Source: a virus. From it: a DNA stretch of 30,620 nt. Below are positions 274 through 30,620 of this stretch, piece after piece. The translations under genes were made by a program, and so were the position numbers. The notes beneath the pieces were generated by a model that saw only the letters and a list, made by a program, of their open reading frames with translations, had not been told where the DNA came from and did no database searches. How positions within the stretch are numbered: the first letter of the stretch is position 1; each line of letters begins with the position of its first letter. The DNA lies in IMG/VR virus record IMGVR_UViG_3300025141_008865, positions 1 through 30,620 of that record; one strand, 5' to 3'.

Positions 274-507
274 ATGAATAACCCCATCAGCACCAACGCC
301 ACCGACCTGCTCACCGAGTTCATCGGCGGATCAATTGAGCTGTTCGGCGCAAATCCCGACGATCTATCCGCAATCCGAGAACTGGAGGACCGCCGCCTGG
401 TTATCGCGACGGGGGCCGATCCAATCTACCTATCCCTGACCGCTGACGGGGCAGACCTCGTGGACGATATGAGGGCAGACATATTGGAAGGTCGGGTGAT
501 GCGATGA
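274..507 (+). CDS. Small acidic phage protein of unknown function
   Basis: 77 aa, acidic, not recognised. A clear AAGGAGTGA precedes the ATG at 274. The 3' end overlaps the helicase gene by ATGA (504-507), so translation is coupled. The gene looks mosaic: codons around 370-390 match the preceding gene at 20 of 21 bases (peptide AIRELED against AIRDLED), and 438-458 is identical in frame to 2752-2772 at the end of the methyltransferase gene (peptide TADGADL). Function is unknown. Small size, acidity and position are typical of early phage accessory proteins. Confidence 0.7.
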   Translation: MNNPISTNATDLLTEFIGGSIELFGANPDDLSAIRELEDRRLVIATGADPIYLSLTADGADLVDDMRADILEGRVMR

Positions 508-1871
508 ACTACGACGACTTCATATCAAGCAAGGCGACGGGGTGCGCACCCGTTGGATTTGATCCTCAATCAGAGAACAATCACCTGATGCATTTCCAGT
601 CTGACATCGTAACCTGGGCGACGAGGCGTGGCCGCGCTGCAATATTCGCGGACTGCGGCATGGGCAAGACAATCATGCAGTTATCATGGGCTGATAATGT
701 TGCAGCGCATACGGGCAAGGCGGTATTAATACTCGCGCCGCTTGCTGTCGCGCAACAGACAGTCGAAGAGGGCGTTAAGTTCGGGATTGCAGCGCGATAC
801 TTAAGGGCAGACGATGGCAACACGGGGATAGTTGTAACTAACTACGAGATGATGGACCATTTTGAGCTGTCAAGGTTCGGAGGCATCGTTTTGGATGAGT
901 CATCAATCCTGAAGTCAAAGACAGGCAAAACCCGGACGGCCATCATTGCGGCTTTTCAGGACACGCCCTACAGGCTCGCATGTACTGCGACTCCGGCACC
1001 CAACGATCACATAGAGCTGGGTAACCACGCCGCATTTCTCGGCATCATGTCGCCAGCCGAGATGCTGGCGACGTATTTTGTGCATGATGGCGGATCAACT
1101 CAAAACTGGCGACTTAAGGGCCACGCTCGCGGCGACTTCTGGCGGTGGGTTTGCTCGTGGGCCATTATGATTCAGAAGCCATCTGACATTGGGCACTCCG
1201 ACGAAGGATTCTCGCTGCCGCCTTTGGTGGTCGATCAGATTACAGTTAACTCCGATGCGACACCGGGATACCTCTTTTCAATGGTTGCTGAGTCTATGGG
1301 CGACCGGATCACGGCCAGGCGGGAATCTATCCCGCAGCGAGTTAGGGCATGTGCGGATGTCGTCAACTCGACATCCGGCCAGTGGATAGTTTGGTGTGGA
1401 CTCAATGACGAGTCCAAGCAGCTCTCCGACTCGATTAATGGAGCGGTTTCAATTAGCGGATCAGACCCGACAGACCTCAAAGAATCACGCATGGCTGGAT
1501 TCAGTCGTGGGGATTTCCGAGTGCTTGTGACAAAGCCAAAGATATGCGGGTTCGGCATGAACTGGCAGCACTGCTCCAACGTCGCATTCGTCGGCTTGTC
1601 CGATTCTTGGGAATCATACTATCAGGCTGTGCGCAGGTGCTGGCGATTCGGCCAACAGTCATCCGTAAACGTCAAGATTATAACGGCGTCAACTGAGGGT
1701 GCCGTTGTAGCAAATATCCAATCGAAAGAGGCCGCTGCCAAGGCGATGGTTGATGGCATGTTGTCTGAAATGCTCGACATTACACGCGAGAATATCGGCG
1801 GATCGTCTCGATCATTTATCAATTATAACCCATCACTTACAATGGAGGTGCCAGCATGGTTGACGTCTTAG
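504..1871 (+). CDS. SNF2-like superfamily 2 helicase
   Basis: 455 aa superfamily 2 DNA helicase/translocase, expected to couple ATP hydrolysis to movement on DNA. Visible motifs: Walker A DCGMGKT (50-56), motif II DESS (131-134, in place of DEAH), motif III TATPAPN (161-167), motif V-like GFGMNWQ (349-355) and motif VI QAVRRCWRFGQ (374-384). Both RecA-like lobes are therefore present and intact. The start ATG overlaps the preceding stop (ATGA), and the end overlaps the methyltransferase gene by 16 nt, so the two are translationally coupled. Phages often place this helicase type beside a DNA methyltransferase. P1 DarB carries both activities in one antirestriction protein. No nuclease motif is seen in this protein or its neighbours, so a role in modification or counter-defence is inferred rather than shown. 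Confidence 0.9.
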   Translation: MNYDDFISSKATGCAPVGFDPQSENNHLMHFQSDIVTWATRRGRAAIFADCGMGKTIMQLSWADNVAAHTGKAVLILAPLAVAQQTVEEGVKFGIAARYLRADDGNTGIVVTNYEMMDHFELSRFGGIVLDESSILKSKTGKTRTAIIAAFQDTPYRLACTATPAPNDHIELGNHAAFLGIMSPAEMLATYFVHDGGSTQNWRLKGHARGDFWRWVCSWAIMIQKPSDIGHSDEGFSLPPLVVDQITVNSDATPGYLFSMVAESMGDRITARRESIPQRVRACADVVNSTSGQWIVWCGLNDESKQLSDSINGAVSISGSDPTDLKESRMAGFSRGDFRVLVTKPKICGFGMNWQHCSNVAFVGLSDSWESYYQAVRRCWRFGQQSSVNVKIITASTEGAVVANIQSKEAAAKAMVDGMLSEMLDITRENIGGSSRSFINYNPSLTMEVPAWLTS

Positions 1872-2800
1872 ATCAGCATCATGGGAAAAGGTTCTCGATA
1901 TACAACGGCGATTGCGTCGATGTTTTGCGCGGCATTCCGAGCGACTCGGTGCATTATTCGATCTTTTCTCCGCCGTTTGCAAGCCTCTATACATACTCAG
2001 CAAGCGACCGTGACATGGGGAACGTGGTAGACGCTGACGAGTTCGCAGACCACTTCATGTTTCTCGTGGCGGAGTTGGCGCGGGTGATGATGCCAGGGCG
2101 GCTGGTTTCTTTCCACTGTATGAATCTACCGAGCAGCAAGGCCCGAGACGGCTTTATTGGGATCAAGGACTTTAGAGGCCAGCTCATAAGGTCGTTCGAG
2201 CGGTCTGGATTTATTTATCATTCAGAGGTTTGCATTTGGAAAGATCCTGTAACCGCCATGCAGAGGACTAAGGCTCTCGGGCTTCTTCACAAAACGATCA
2301 GAAAGGATTCGTGCATGGCTCGGCAAGGGATCGCTGATTATGTAGTAACGATGAGGAAGCCAGGAGAAAACCCCGAGCCATGCCCCAACACGCACGAATC
2401 ATTCCCTGTCAAAATGTGGCAGCAATATGCATCGCCAATTTGGACAGACATCAATCCTTCGGATACGCTTCAACGAATGAGCGCGAGAGATGAAAACGAC
2501 GAAAGACACATCTGCCCTCTTCAGCTTGAGGTTATCCGCAGGTGCGTTCGACTGTGGACGAAAGAGGGCGACGCAGTGCTGTCTCCGTTTGCCGGGATTG
2601 GGAGCGAGGGCCATGTATCTGTCGAGATGGGCAGGCGATTCGTTGGCATTGAATTGAAGCCGAGTTATTACCAACAAGCGACAAAAAACCTAATCAACGC
2701 AGAGGACGGCGTGGATCAAGGCTCGCTGTTTGGAATCACCAACGAGCCGCCGACCGCTGACGGGGCAGACCTACAGGACGAGATCAGAGGCGCAGAATGA
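1856..2800 (+). CDS. DNA methyltransferase, N4-cytosine or N6-adenine type
   Basis: 314 aa SAM-dependent DNA amino-methyltransferase. Catalytic motif IV is SPPF (38-41), N-terminal to the SAM-binding motif I FAGIGS (245-250) and the acidic GIEL (264-267). This order is that of the beta class. SPP[YF] favours N4-cytosine over N6-adenine, but this is not decisive. The segment just before motif I (ICPLQLEVIRRCVRLW) is the usual lead-in helix. The start follows GGAGGTG with good spacing. No restriction endonuclease is adjacent, so it is a solitary methylase, likely protecting phage DNA or acting with the overlapping helicase. The last residues (TADGADL region) duplicate, in frame, part of the gene at 274-507, which suggests recombination at its 3' end. 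Confidence 0.9.
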   Translation: MVDVLDQHHGKRFSIYNGDCVDVLRGIPSDSVHYSIFSPPFASLYTYSASDRDMGNVVDADEFADHFMFLVAELARVMMPGRLVSFHCMNLPSSKARDGFIGIKDFRGQLIRSFERSGFIYHSEVCIWKDPVTAMQRTKALGLLHKTIRKDSCMARQGIADYVVTMRKPGENPEPCPNTHESFPVKMWQQYASPIWTDINPSDTLQRMSARDENDERHICPLQLEVIRRCVRLWTKEGDAVLSPFAGIGSEGHVSVEMGRRFVGIELKPSYYQQATKNLINAEDGVDQGSLFGITNEPPTADGADLQDEIRGAE

Positions 2801-26351: not shown

Positions 26352-26738
26352 ATGACAAACGCAACCAAAACCGACCGCCTCTGGGAGGTAATGCCCGAAG
26401 AGGTCTCGCGACTCAGGCCCCTATTCGACAATATCGCGCAGGCCGTTTTTGAGCTGGCGCAGTACGAAGAGGAGGAGGGCGTGATAACAGCCGAGGAAAT
26501 ATCGAAGCAGTTCGGAGACCTCGTCCCCAGAGATCGGCGCGAGCAAGTGCACGCCTCTGTCGTCGCCGTGGCGGTCGGGCTTTACGTCTTCGACGACGGC
26601 TCTGTCTACTCGCTCGATGAGATGTATTGGTCAGACCTATCGCTTTGCCGCGATCATTGCGAGAAGGGCGGCGAGGACGAGCGCGGCTATCCGCTTCCCG
26701 ACGGATGGGATGAGGATGACGAGGAGGAGTGCTACTAA
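26352..26738 (+). CDS. Acidic protein of unknown function
   Basis: 128 aa, very acidic, especially at the C-terminus (WDEDDEEECY). The start at ATG 26352 is set by AAGGAGA at 26340. A GTG at 26328 is in frame but has no SD. The N-terminal helix (LWEVMPEEVSRLRPLFDNIAQ) and the middle (ITAEEISKQFGDLV) suggest a small winged-helix-like fold. The stop overlaps the exonuclease start (TAATG). Acidic proteins beside exonuclease/annealase pairs sometimes inhibit host nucleases (lambda Gam role), but no similarity supports that here. Confidence 0.65.
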   Translation: MTNATKTDRLWEVMPEEVSRLRPLFDNIAQAVFELAQYEEEEGVITAEEISKQFGDLVPRDRREQVHASVVAVAVGLYVFDDGSVYSLDEMYWSDLSLCRDHCEKGGEDERGYPLPDGWDEDDEEECY

Positions 26739-27682
26739 TGCCGCTAACACAACACCAATTAAAGCAACGCCTGACAGGACTCGGCGGATCTGACATCGGC
26801 TCCGTGCTGGGTCTCAATTCCTACCGAGGAGCTCACGACGTTTGGGCGGAGAAGCGAGGGCTGATCGCGCCCGCCGACCTGTCAGATAACCCCTTTATTC
26901 AATTCGGGAACGTCATGGAGCCGGTGTTGCTCGAACACTACAAGGAGGCGACGGGCGCCTCTGTGATGGCTGGAGAGGGGACCATATCGCACCCGGAACG
27001 CCCGTGGCACCTCGCCTCGGTGGATGGCCTGGTAGGTCCGACAGGCCGACCTGACGGCGTTCTGGAGGCAAAAACCGCGAGCTGGCGGATGAAAGATCAA
27101 TGGGGCGAAGCCGGCACAGACCAGGTGCCAGAGTCATACCTGGTTCAATGCGCCTGGTACATGGCGGCGCTCGATTTGCCGTGGTGCGATCTCGTCGCAC
27201 TGGTCGATAGATCATTCTCTATCTATCACATAGAGCGCAACCCAGAGCTGGAGTCGGCTATCGTCGAAGCTGGTGAGAGGTTCTGGCTCGATCACGTCGA
27301 GGCGGGCGTCCCGCCAGAGACAGACGGCTCGGACGGTTGCCGAGAGGTTCTCTCCGCTCTGCACCCAGCCACCACCGACAAGGTGCTGGTAGCCACGCCA
27401 GAGGTGGAGGCGCTGTGCGTCCGGCTTCGTGATATCAAGTTGACCCAGAAGGAGCAGAAGGCCGAGGAGGCGGCCATCAAGAACGCGCTCGCGGAGTTTG
27501 TCGGCAGCAACAAAGGTATCGAGGCGAGCTGTGGCAAAGTCACATGGACGAAGGCGAGCCAACGCCAGACGGTACAGTGGAAGGCGTTAGCCGAATCCCT
27601 TAACATACCAGCGGAAGATATCGAACGATTCACCAGGACCAGCCCGATAGCGCGAAGCATCAGGCCTTACTTTAAGGAGTAG
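26738..27682 (+). CDS. YqaJ-like phage exonuclease
   Basis: 314 aa, lambda-exonuclease-type 5'-3' double-strand exonuclease of the YqaJ family. Motifs: GLGGSDIGSVLGLNSYR (14-30), FGNVMEPVLLEHY (56-68; Glu61), SVDGLV (94-99; Asp96) and VLEAKT (108-113; Glu110 and Lys112), which together make the metal site. The C-terminal extension (about 215-314) is helical. ATG 26738 overlaps the upstream stop (TAATG), with GGAGGAG before it. It resects DNA ends to leave 3' single strands for the RecT protein encoded next. Confidence 0.9.
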   Translation: MPLTQHQLKQRLTGLGGSDIGSVLGLNSYRGAHDVWAEKRGLIAPADLSDNPFIQFGNVMEPVLLEHYKEATGASVMAGEGTISHPERPWHLASVDGLVGPTGRPDGVLEAKTASWRMKDQWGEAGTDQVPESYLVQCAWYMAALDLPWCDLVALVDRSFSIYHIERNPELESAIVEAGERFWLDHVEAGVPPETDGSDGCREVLSALHPATTDKVLVATPEVEALCVRLRDIKLTQKEQKAEEAAIKNALAEFVGSNKGIEASCGKVTWTKASQRQTVQWKALAESLNIPAEDIERFTRTSPIARSIRPYFKE

Positions 27683-27686
27683 ACAG

Positions 27687-28580
27687 ATGACAAACCAAAA
27701 CCACGTACAAACGTACGGCCAGAGGATCGCGAGCTTCAAGGACTTGCTTGAGAAGGCAGCGCCGAAGCTGGCGGAGATCCTGCCAGCCCACATCAGCCCC
27801 GAGCGGATGTGCAAGGTCGCCTTGATCGCCGCCAACCAAAACCCGCAGCTCCTGGAGTGCACCCCAGCATCGATAGTCTCGGCCATGATGACGGCGGCAT
27901 CCCTGGGGCTTGAGCCAGATGGCACCATGGGCTCGGCTTATCTCGTCCCCTATCGAACGCGGTGCCAGCTCATCATCGGCTATCGCGGACTCATAGACCT
28001 CGCCAGGCGAAGCGGTCATATTTCCAAGATCGAAGCCCACGCTGTCTATGAGGGGGACGAATTCGCCTACGAGCACGGACTCCATCCAGACCTCACTCAC
28101 AAGCCGACACTGGGAGAGCGGGGCGAGATCGTCGCATTCTATGCCCTCGCGGTCCTGTCGGATGGCGCAAGTCAGTTTGTCGTCTTGTCCAAGGCAGACG
28201 TTGACAAGGTGCGAGGCGGCTCGGCTGCTGGTGGTAGTGGACCATGGGGGAATTTCTACTCAGAGATGGGGAAGAAGACAGCCGCGAGAAATCTTTGCAA
28301 GTATCTCCCATTTTCTGCCACGCTGAATAAAGCCATGAGCCTCGACGTGTGCGCCGAGTCGGGGCAGATAACACAAGCCGAGTTTGACATCCTCGACGAC
28401 GACGACGCCCCAGAGGATGTCCAAGCGGCGCCCAAGTCCAAGAGCTCTGCAATCGCTGCGAAGCTGGGAGCGAAGAAGAAGGCGCCCGAGCCGCAGGACG
28501 ACGACGCGGCGATGCTTGCCGACCTCGGTGACCCTGTCGCAGGCGCGGCCATGATCGATGAGGAGGGGATACCATTTTAA
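27687..28580 (+). CDS. recT: RecT-family single-strand annealing protein
   Basis: 297 aa. Family pattern: ERMCKVALIAANQNPQLLEC (49-68), then SIVSAMMTAASLGLEPDG and YLVPYRTRCQLIIGYRGLI (about 91-110), then AARNLCKYLP near 200. The C-terminal ~70 residues are an acidic, disordered tail with a conserved-looking tip (EEGIPF) that could recruit single-strand DNA-binding protein. It anneals the single strands made by the YqaJ exonuclease. AAGGAGTAGAC lies before ATG 27687, 4 nt after the exonuclease stop. A terminator hairpin lies about 160 nt downstream. Confidence 0.92.
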   Translation: MTNQNHVQTYGQRIASFKDLLEKAAPKLAEILPAHISPERMCKVALIAANQNPQLLECTPASIVSAMMTAASLGLEPDGTMGSAYLVPYRTRCQLIIGYRGLIDLARRSGHISKIEAHAVYEGDEFAYEHGLHPDLTHKPTLGERGEIVAFYALAVLSDGASQFVVLSKADVDKVRGGSAAGGSGPWGNFYSEMGKKTAARNLCKYLPFSATLNKAMSLDVCAESGQITQAEFDILDDDDAPEDVQAAPKSKSSAIAAKLGAKKKAPEPQDDDAAMLADLGDPVAGAAMIDEEGIPF

Positions 28581-28684: not shown

Positions 28685-28738
28685 CCACCACAAGCGCTGA
28701 CAACACTCGTCTCCATCCCGTTACACTTTGTCAGCGCC

Positions 28739-28790
28739 GGAGCCGCTGCCGTCCCCACCACTACTGGCGGCGGCTCCACTTTTCTCTCCT
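28739..28790 (+). terminator. Terminator of the exonuclease/RecT unit
   Basis: A 12-bp stem (28739-28750 with 28766-28777, one G-U) has a 15-nt loop and is followed by ACTTTTCTCT. The 228 nt between recT and the next ATG otherwise hold only the tentative mini-ORF. Confidence 0.7.
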
Positions 28791-28808
28791 CAAAACCCAG
28801 CCCACCTC

Positions 28809-29060
28809 ATGCTCTCGACAGTGACGCGGCGACGCTCATCGTCCAGACCACCCCCCACCAATGACGCCGCCGCCGTCGTCTCTGAGGCGCTGTCTCTCCT
28901 CGACCACCAAGATCTCGCGCTGATCTGGCTGCTTCATCTGCACGAGGAGCCCTATACCCGCATAGAGCTCGCCGCAGCCCTGGGAGTCTCTGCCATGACG
29001 GTCGGAAACTGGGAGAAGGCGGCCCTGGTGCGACTCAGGCGGCACATCAGAGCCCGATAA
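28809..29060 (+). CDS. Sigma-region-4-like HTH regulator
   Basis: 83 aa from ATG 28809. The C-terminal half (LDHQDLALIWLLHLHEEPYT, then RIELAAALGVSAMTVGNWEKAALVRLRRHIRAR) has the layout of sigma-70 region 4 and of small phage late-gene or antitermination regulators: a helix that recognises RNA polymerase, then a helix-turn-helix. The N-terminus (about 30 residues) is Arg/Ser/Pro-rich and probably disordered. No SD precedes the ATG, and a TTG at 28728 would extend the frame by 27 residues through the terminator. It is a candidate activator of the leftward late unit. Confidence 0.6.
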   Translation: MLSTVTRRRSSSRPPPTNDAAAVVSEALSLLDHQDLALIWLLHLHEEPYTRIELAAALGVSAMTVGNWEKAALVRLRRHIRAR

Positions 29061-29189: not shown

Positions 29190-30476
29190 ATGACCACCAA
29201 CGAAACAACAAGAACCGCGACACGAACCACAGAGGCCACCGCCACCACCGGCGAGGCTGTGAGCTGCCTGGCACACGCTCAGGATCAGGTGATTCAGGTA
29301 AGAGGCAAGCAGGTCTCTCGCCAGAACGTCCTCGACTCCATCGCCGTCTGTGAGAGCGTTGGCAGGTTGGCCTTCCTCTCTGACAATGGATACGGGGATT
29401 CCACCCGCTACCATCTGCGCCATGACGGTCGCTCTTATCCGTCCAAGGCGATCCTTGGCGTAGCCGCGGGTCTGAGTCCTGCCGACTTCTTCGGCGGTGC
29501 AGCTCACACCGTCGCCCAGCTCGCTCGTCTCGGCTTCCACGTTCGCAACAGCGACACGGGCGAGATCGTAGACCCGAGCCTCGACGGACTGCGCCGCCGC
29601 TGTCTCTCCGAGGGCTTGGATGTCGGGACCACCGCGTGGCCCGAGTCGCCCGTCGCACCTGCCGCATATTTCGCATCAGGCTCCAACCGTGTCGGAGAGA
29701 TCCGAGGACTATCCAAGGCAGGAGCAGACGTAGGCGTCGCAGCGAACGAAATCTCCCCAGCCGCAGAGGCTGCCCTCGTCGAGCTCGCAGGGTCAGACGT
29801 TCAGGTGTTCGTCGATTCTGGCGCATTCTCAGAGGTGAGCTTCGGAGCCAATGGCGCCGAGATCGTCAAGCCCATTACCCCCGCTGGCTGGGAGCGAGTC
29901 CTCGCCCTCTACGCTCGCCTCGGTCGTGCGCTCGGCTCCCAGCTCTGGATCGTCGCACCCGATTGCGTCGGACATCAGGACATAACGCTGGAGCGCCTCG
30001 CCCTCTACGCCACAGACGTTAGAGCGCTTCACGCCTCCGGCGTTCACGTCCTCGTCCCCGTCCAAAAGGGCGAGCTCTCACAAGCCGCCTTCGCCGCGAA
30101 GATAGACGCCGCCCTCGGCTTCACGAGCTGGATACCCGCCATGCCCTGCAAGAAGGCAGCCACGACCGCCGCCGAGGTCGCGGACTTCCTGACGACCCGC
30201 AAGCCGGACCACGTTCACCTGCTCGGCTTGGGCATCCGCTCCCGCAAGCTCGAAGCCTACCTCGCACCATTCACCGACAGCCTCGCCTCTGTGTCCTTGG
30301 ATTCCTGCTGGATCACCGCCAACGTCGGCAGGACAAGCGGACCAAAGGGCGGCCCTCGCAAGCTGACAGCCGCCAGAGACATCGCCAAGAGCGTCACCGG
30401 ACTCGACGGCGGCGCCAAGGTTATCGAACTCGCAATATACACCTGCCTCGCAGGTTCAGGACTGACCGCAAAGTAA
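29190..30476 (+). CDS. ScoMcrA-head / DpdA-like transglycosylase fusion
   Basis: 428 aa, two domains. Residues about 41-120 (SRQNVLDSIAVCESVGRLAF, YHLRHDGRSYPSKAILGVA, PADFFGGAAHTVAQLARLGF) match by eye the ScoMcrA-like N-terminal head domain known from modification-dependent endonucleases. Residues about 155-428 resemble the tRNA-guanine transglycosylase fold of DpdA proteins, which exchange guanine in DNA for 7-deazaguanines: DSGAFS (209-214, like DSGGF), APDCVG (256-261), VPVQKGE (289-295), LLGLGIRS (344-351) and LDSCW (370-374, likely nucleophile Asp371). The CxC zinc site of true tRNA enzymes is not seen. AAGGAG precedes ATG 29190. No deazaguanine synthesis genes are present, so a host precursor would be needed. 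Confidence 0.75.
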   Translation: MTTNETTRTATRTTEATATTGEAVSCLAHAQDQVIQVRGKQVSRQNVLDSIAVCESVGRLAFLSDNGYGDSTRYHLRHDGRSYPSKAILGVAAGLSPADFFGGAAHTVAQLARLGFHVRNSDTGEIVDPSLDGLRRRCLSEGLDVGTTAWPESPVAPAAYFASGSNRVGEIRGLSKAGADVGVAANEISPAAEAALVELAGSDVQVFVDSGAFSEVSFGANGAEIVKPITPAGWERVLALYARLGRALGSQLWIVAPDCVGHQDITLERLALYATDVRALHASGVHVLVPVQKGELSQAAFAAKIDAALGFTSWIPAMPCKKAATTAAEVADFLTTRKPDHVHLLGLGIRSRKLEAYLAPFTDSLASVSLDSCWITANVGRTSGPKGGPRKLTAARDIAKSVTGLDGGAKVIELAIYTCLAGSGLTAK

Positions 30477-30484
30477 ACCGCAAC

Positions 30485-30620
30485 CAAAGGAGTGAGACCA
30501 TGAGCAATGACAAGGCAGCAATCCGAGACCTGGAGGACAGGCTGGCGGCGGCGCTCCGCATGATCAGCCAACTAAAGGCGCAGGCCAAGTATCACGACGC
30601 ATGCGCGATACCTGCCGCAC
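30485..30620. repeat. Right copy of terminal direct repeat
   Basis: Repeats bases 1-137 with one base missing. It includes the start (ATG 30500) and first 40 codons of the same small gene that is complete at 17-244. The SD here reads AAGGAGTGAGACC, identical in form to the one at 262-273, so this copy is probably the correct one. Confidence 0.95.

Follow-up and report, generated by a model that had tools for sequence, protein, structure and literature searches.

We examined what a domain known from a restriction enzyme may do when it is joined to a putative DNA-modifying enzyme, a question raised by one gene of a viral record of 30,620 nucleotides (IMG/VR record IMGVR_UViG_3300025141_008865; "the window" hereafter means this whole stretch). 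The gene (29190..30476, plus strand) is an open reading frame of 428 aa, whose exact start codon is uncertain because residues 1-26 are disordered in the structural model and not conserved. We distinguished two parts: a ScoMcrA-type head domain at residues 41-121 (29310..29552, plus strand), in which the motifs YPSKAILG and F(F/S)GG are conserved, and a DpdA/TGT-like (beta/alpha)8 barrel at about residues 156-404 (29655..30401, plus strand). The reading that we favor, and hold with reasonable confidence, is that of a host-dependent phage DNA-guanine transglycosylase of DpdA type with an added N-terminal ScoMcrA-type head that probably engages DNA.

The head was detected both in sequence and in fold. 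In a single-sequence search, residues 41-121 matched ScoMcrA (PDB entry 5zmm, E 1.4e-7), and 5zmm was the sole PDB chain matched by a ten-member head profile (E 9.8e-17). PADLOC assigned the same stretch to mREase_IV (type IV restriction enzyme, E 1e-8). All the top Foldseek matches of the head-only model (pLDDT 92) were to 5zmm (E 3e-5, TM 0.66), the next unrelated match having E 1.8, and the matching region in both sequence and fold was 5zmm residues ~5-97. The first-pass annotation, made from the DNA letters alone, had recognized this N-terminal part as a ScoMcrA-type head and had named the structural comparison of residues 41-120 with that head as a check; it was run and the match was found.

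In bacteria, we found the head in 14 of about 800 genomes (two phyla). It either stood alone or belonged to HNH, SRA-HNH-like or NOV_C (DUF3883) proteins, and in no case did it occur with the barrel. Since bacterial heads sit mostly in nucleases, the head could serve something apart from targeting. ScoMcrA-type heads joined to NOV_C (DUF3883) were observed both in bacteria and in a Vibrio phage, there together with DUF3427 (L125, L130 and L095), and L125 also had a PADLOC match to PDC-S36. One further candidate head locus (L123) was a weak match within a P-type ATPase-like protein and was discarded as chance.

For the barrel, searches of Pfam, NCBIfam and PHROG with the window protein gave no significant match, and the protein had no direct sequence match to DpdA or TGT; its link to them runs through profiles and predicted structure. 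Two barrel-family profiles (A2 and A3) searched against the PDB by sequence also recovered no TGT, therefore fold and profile-profile comparisons were needed. The AlphaFold2 model of the whole protein (pLDDT 87.4, pTM 0.82) contained eight barrel strands, and its best Foldseek match in the PDB was TGT 7a4x (E 2.7e-5), with low TM-scores of 0.36-0.40 for the full model. The DpdA of phage Mufasa8 was among its best viral structure matches. When the 61-member barrel family was compared with eight phage DpdA sequences by hhalign, the alignment had a probability of 95.7, E 8.8e-9 and a score of 66.9, against a maximum score of 17.3 over 40 column shuffles. With the single E. coli TGT sequence the DSGGF motif alone was aligned, and by profile phage DpdA was the nearer of the two. 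In addition, a plasmid relative of the barrel matched the PHROG of 9g DpdA (E 2.3e-6).

The motifs DSGAFS (residues 209-214), APDCVG (256-261), VPVQKGE (289-295) and LDSCW (370-374) were all present in the translated gene. In the 61-member alignment 18 positions were invariant (S163, G164, G182, F207, D209-F213, P257, D258, Q292, G294, P319, H343, L345, G346 and D371), and the model places the invariant residues at barrel strand ends. In particular, five residues, each invariant in 61/61 members and encoded on the plus strand, outline the predicted active site: Asp209 of DSGAF (29814..29816), equivalent to 9g DpdA Asp72 and located where strand 3 ends; Asp258 of APD (29961..29963), after strand 4 and equivalent to Asp114; Gln292 of VPVQKGE (30063..30065), after strand 5; His343 of HVHLLG (30216..30218), aligned with His196 of 9g, the DpdA-type histidine; and Asp371 of LDSCW (30300..30302), equivalent to Asp215, located where strand 8 ends and predicted to act as the nucleophile. 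Matched by motif order rather than by superposition, and in the numbering of the Zymomonas enzyme, we take Asp209 to correspond to TGT Asp102 and Asp258 to Asp156, a base-pocket Asp by analogy, while Gln292 and Asp371 presumably occupy the positions of Gln203 and Asp280.

The predicted fold combines a TIM barrel with a base-exchange Asp and a nucleophile Asp that lie where strands 3 and 8, respectively, end, as in the TGT/DpdA superfamily. No nuclease family was recognized in the barrel, and HNH, SRA and sulfur-binding domains were absent from the window protein. We assign the barrel to the DpdA type within the TGT superfamily, with activity on DNA as a prediction, because of the hhalign match to DpdA, the alignment with D72, D114, H196 and D215, and the absence of the CxCxxC zinc motif of tRNA TGT, which was found in 0/61 members. 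The earlier claims on this half of the protein were borne out as well: TGT/DpdA signatures in the remainder of the protein (all motifs present), a TGT barrel within residues 155-428 (7a4x as best PDB fold), no HNH nuclease (the rest of the protein being the barrel), and Asp209 and Asp371 as catalytic candidates (both invariant and aligned with 9g D72 and D215). That the protein is instead a tRNA-guanine transglycosylase acting on host or phage tRNA would fit with a tRNA enzyme being the best PDB fold match, but we regard it as highly improbable given the missing zinc motif, the closer profile relationship to phage DpdA, the fusion of relatives to DNA methyltransferase and Mom-like domains, and a window genome without tRNA genes.

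We then considered whether the pairing of head and barrel is real. A tblastn search with the window protein found nothing in phages and, in plasmids, the barrel part only. Barrel relatives were detected at 76 viral loci (query included), at 13 loci in genomes and in 53 plasmid records; the scan of genome contigs yielded those 13 barrel relatives, 0 of them with a head. Head-barrel fusions were found in the window (with L001 and L002 identical), L003, L004, L025, L026, L027, L117 and L118, while in L029 and L039 head and barrel were separate genes overlapping by four bases (ATGA). A search of the viral contigs with the head only found 11 head loci, and all 11 were paired with a barrel enzyme. 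The search for the fusion in other phages that had been suggested earlier thus returned both fusions and ATGA-split pairs in further viral contigs, and the recurrence of the pairing in several other phage genomes argues that it is real. An assembly artefact joining two genes was ruled out, as the same fusion occurred in independent contigs at about 46-65% identity. The fusion of L118 (5917-7413) lies in a 275-kb contig and carries two cysteine-rich zinc-ribbon-like inserts. We found no described protein with this pairing in a limited search of the open-access literature, consistent with what the first-pass annotation had stated, and the pairing is likely novel.

In the tree, the head-bearing members fell in one supported group of 12 (96/95), in which L028 and L030 lack the head; the simplest history is therefore a single gain of the head with losses. 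Those head-less members of the same clade are what might be expected if the head were merely a fold-stabilizing or oligomerization piece without a DNA role, the fusion adding nothing to site choice; it would also agree with the ScoMcrA head, which is small, flexible, located outside the dimer contacts and of unknown function there (PMC6224610). We think such a role quite unlikely, since both halves of the fusion are under purifying selection (dN/dS 0.2-0.4), the pairing is also kept as two overlapping genes, and other head carriers are mostly DNA enzymes. A head that engages DNA remains our preferred interpretation.

The window represents the whole circular genome of a tailed phage: contigs L001 and L002 continue past its end into its start, and a direct repeat of about 136 bp is present at both of its ends (right copy at 30485..30620, left copy at the window start). 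The plus strand carries in order a RecE/YqaJ-like exonuclease (26729-27682), the RecT annealing protein (27687..28580), a sigma-70 region 4-like HTH protein directly upstream of the fusion (28728..29060; PF04545 E 2.5e-4, below the Pfam cut-off), the fusion itself and, across the circular junction, two small open reading frames, an SNF2-type helicase (504..1871) and an N6/N4 DNA methyltransferase (1856..2800; PF01555 E 4e-16). Capsid, portal and terminase are encoded by the minus strand. No tRNA genes or Rfam RNAs were detected in this genome.

A DpdA-type enzyme that inserts preQ0 needs a source of that base. We searched 50 contigs for QueC and QueD and obtained one partial, weak match to QueC and none to QueD; both were absent from the complete window genome. 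Consequently, a 7-deazaguanine donor is an assumption on our part. Phages with a lone dpdA gene are known: the DNA of MED16 and 7-11 carries dADG, whereas Orion, with a lone dpdA and a host without preQ0 genes, has no dADG in its DNA (PMC8306585). A base supplied by the host is therefore plausible for the window enzyme.

The same shortage of preQ0 pathway genes would also suit a barrel that swaps or removes another base, for example a modified or damaged guanine (an eraser, glycosylase-like), with the head recognizing the mark that type IV enzymes attack. Such an activity would agree with the occurrence of the head elsewhere in modification-dependent and other nucleases, and with the L003 fusion being directly followed by a nucleoside 2-deoxyribosyltransferase-like gene (L003:9261-9653; PF05014 E 6e-6, just below the Pfam cut-off), another type of base-exchange enzyme. 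It seems doubtful to us, as the TGT/DpdA base-exchange residues are all kept and the partners of the barrel family, namely DUF6884/DpdC-type, Mom and C5-methyltransferase domains, are writers. Insertion of a 7-deazaguanine thus stays the activity that we favor.

Those partners belong to relatives of the window protein rather than to the window protein itself. DUF6884 and the barrel were found in the same open reading frame in three loci (L043:7139-11098, L047:9161-11269 and L049:7862-11239); DpdC is reported to have this Pfam domain (PMC11888242), which in turn has YaaA/DUF328 as a relative (PMC11701544). A single open reading frame of 1177 aa (L053:8564-12094) joined a DpdA-like barrel to a C5-cytosine methyltransferase and to a Mom-like stretch, the latter below the Pfam cut-off (Mom E 8.6e-5), which would unite three DNA-modification activities in a single phage protein. 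In L030 the barrel gene was close to a C5-methyltransferase and to a Mom gene with a clear match (E 4.9e-26). Across contigs, 9 of 16 had a C5-methyltransferase no more than 3 kb from the barrel, against 2.0 expected (0 of 20000 permutations); the permutation p value is too optimistic because contigs were treated as independent although some, L074 and L080 for example, appear to be related. In both L039 and L117, which are head-linked, a C5-methyltransferase gene adjoins. The C5-methyltransferase beside the head-barrel gene of L117 (4694-5917) has a SymE-like N-terminal domain (E 1.4e-8). ParB was considered as a barrel neighbor and dropped, being present in only 2 of 30 contigs.

Relatives of the barrel were also found inside ART-PolyVal and InPase phage polyvalent proteins and an LPD1 plasmid protein, with lengths up to several thousand residues; the DpdA-like barrel is apparently an undescribed component of polyvalent proteins. 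It occurred in giant phage frames of about 4100-8160 aa (L036, L058, L065, L074, L078, L080 and L094) and within an LPD1 polyvalent protein of 2206 aa on a Cupriavidus plasmid (L007:2838-9455), and further barrel genes were seen on Pseudomonas plasmids. In one relative (L050:9371-10723) an insert of ~85 residues, which may be an intein or an inserted domain, splits the barrel just before VDSGAF.

We infer DNA as the substrate, preQ0 as the donor and the role of the head. In the proposed mechanism, Asp371 would attack C1' of the target deoxyguanosine in phage DNA, while Asp209, Asp258 and Gln292 would line the pocket from which guanine departs. A 7-deazaguanine base, most likely preQ0 from the host, would then replace it, and the modified DNA would be poorly read by host restriction enzymes. 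The head would be a flexible module, most likely holding the catalytic barrel on DNA, where it may recognize sequence, a methyl mark or nothing specific. It might instead read the state of a DNA base or of the backbone, as a module borrowed from type IV restriction, and steer the exchange to or away from marked sites (e.g. those marked by the linked methyltransferases). We consider this reading function rather unlikely; if true, modification already present would govern where this phage DNA-modification enzyme acts. The links of the barrel family to methyltransferase, Mom and DpdC-type domains suggest stacked DNA modifications in phages without their own preQ0 pathway.

Among the closest known systems, phage DpdA (9g, Seuratvirus, mycobacteriophage) shares the barrel and the motif order (DSGAFS, D114, G, H196, D215), as recovered in the profile comparison, and its use in DNA modification was shown experimentally for 9g and CAjan (PMC6884629). 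The window protein differs from it by the extra head, by having no QueC or QueD alongside, by a Gln at the strand-5 position where 9g DpdA has His141, and by an identity of about 19-24% in the aligned part. DpdA2 of Vibrio phage nt-1 shares the TGT superfamily and a part in phage DNA modification but has no histidine at position 196 (PMC6884629), whereas the aligned His343 is invariant in the window family, which places it outside DpdA2. The singleton DpdA phages MED16, 7-11 and Orion resemble the window in having a dpdA-type gene without preQ0 genes (QueC and QueD in the window search), but their enzymes have no reported head domain and belong to a different sequence group. Polyvalent proteins contain relatives of the barrel, and the window protein, with two domains and 428 aa, is too small to be counted among them; a 2017 survey of these proteins (PMC5512222) mentions no TGT, DpdA or deazaguanine domain in its main text. 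The barrel family appears to form a DpdA subfamily that has not been described before; it occurs on plasmids as well as in large polyvalent proteins of phages and has links to C5-methyltransferase, Mom and DpdC-type domains. Finally, ScoMcrA, a type IV restriction enzyme of Streptomyces coelicolor, shares the head (5zmm residues 5-97) with the window protein, which lacks the SBD, SRA and HNH domains; ScoMcrA cuts modified DNA, while the window protein is predicted to modify DNA. An orphan restriction-enzyme domain is in this way tied to a DNA-modifying enzyme, and comparing this enzyme with and without its head offers a concrete route to the function of that domain.
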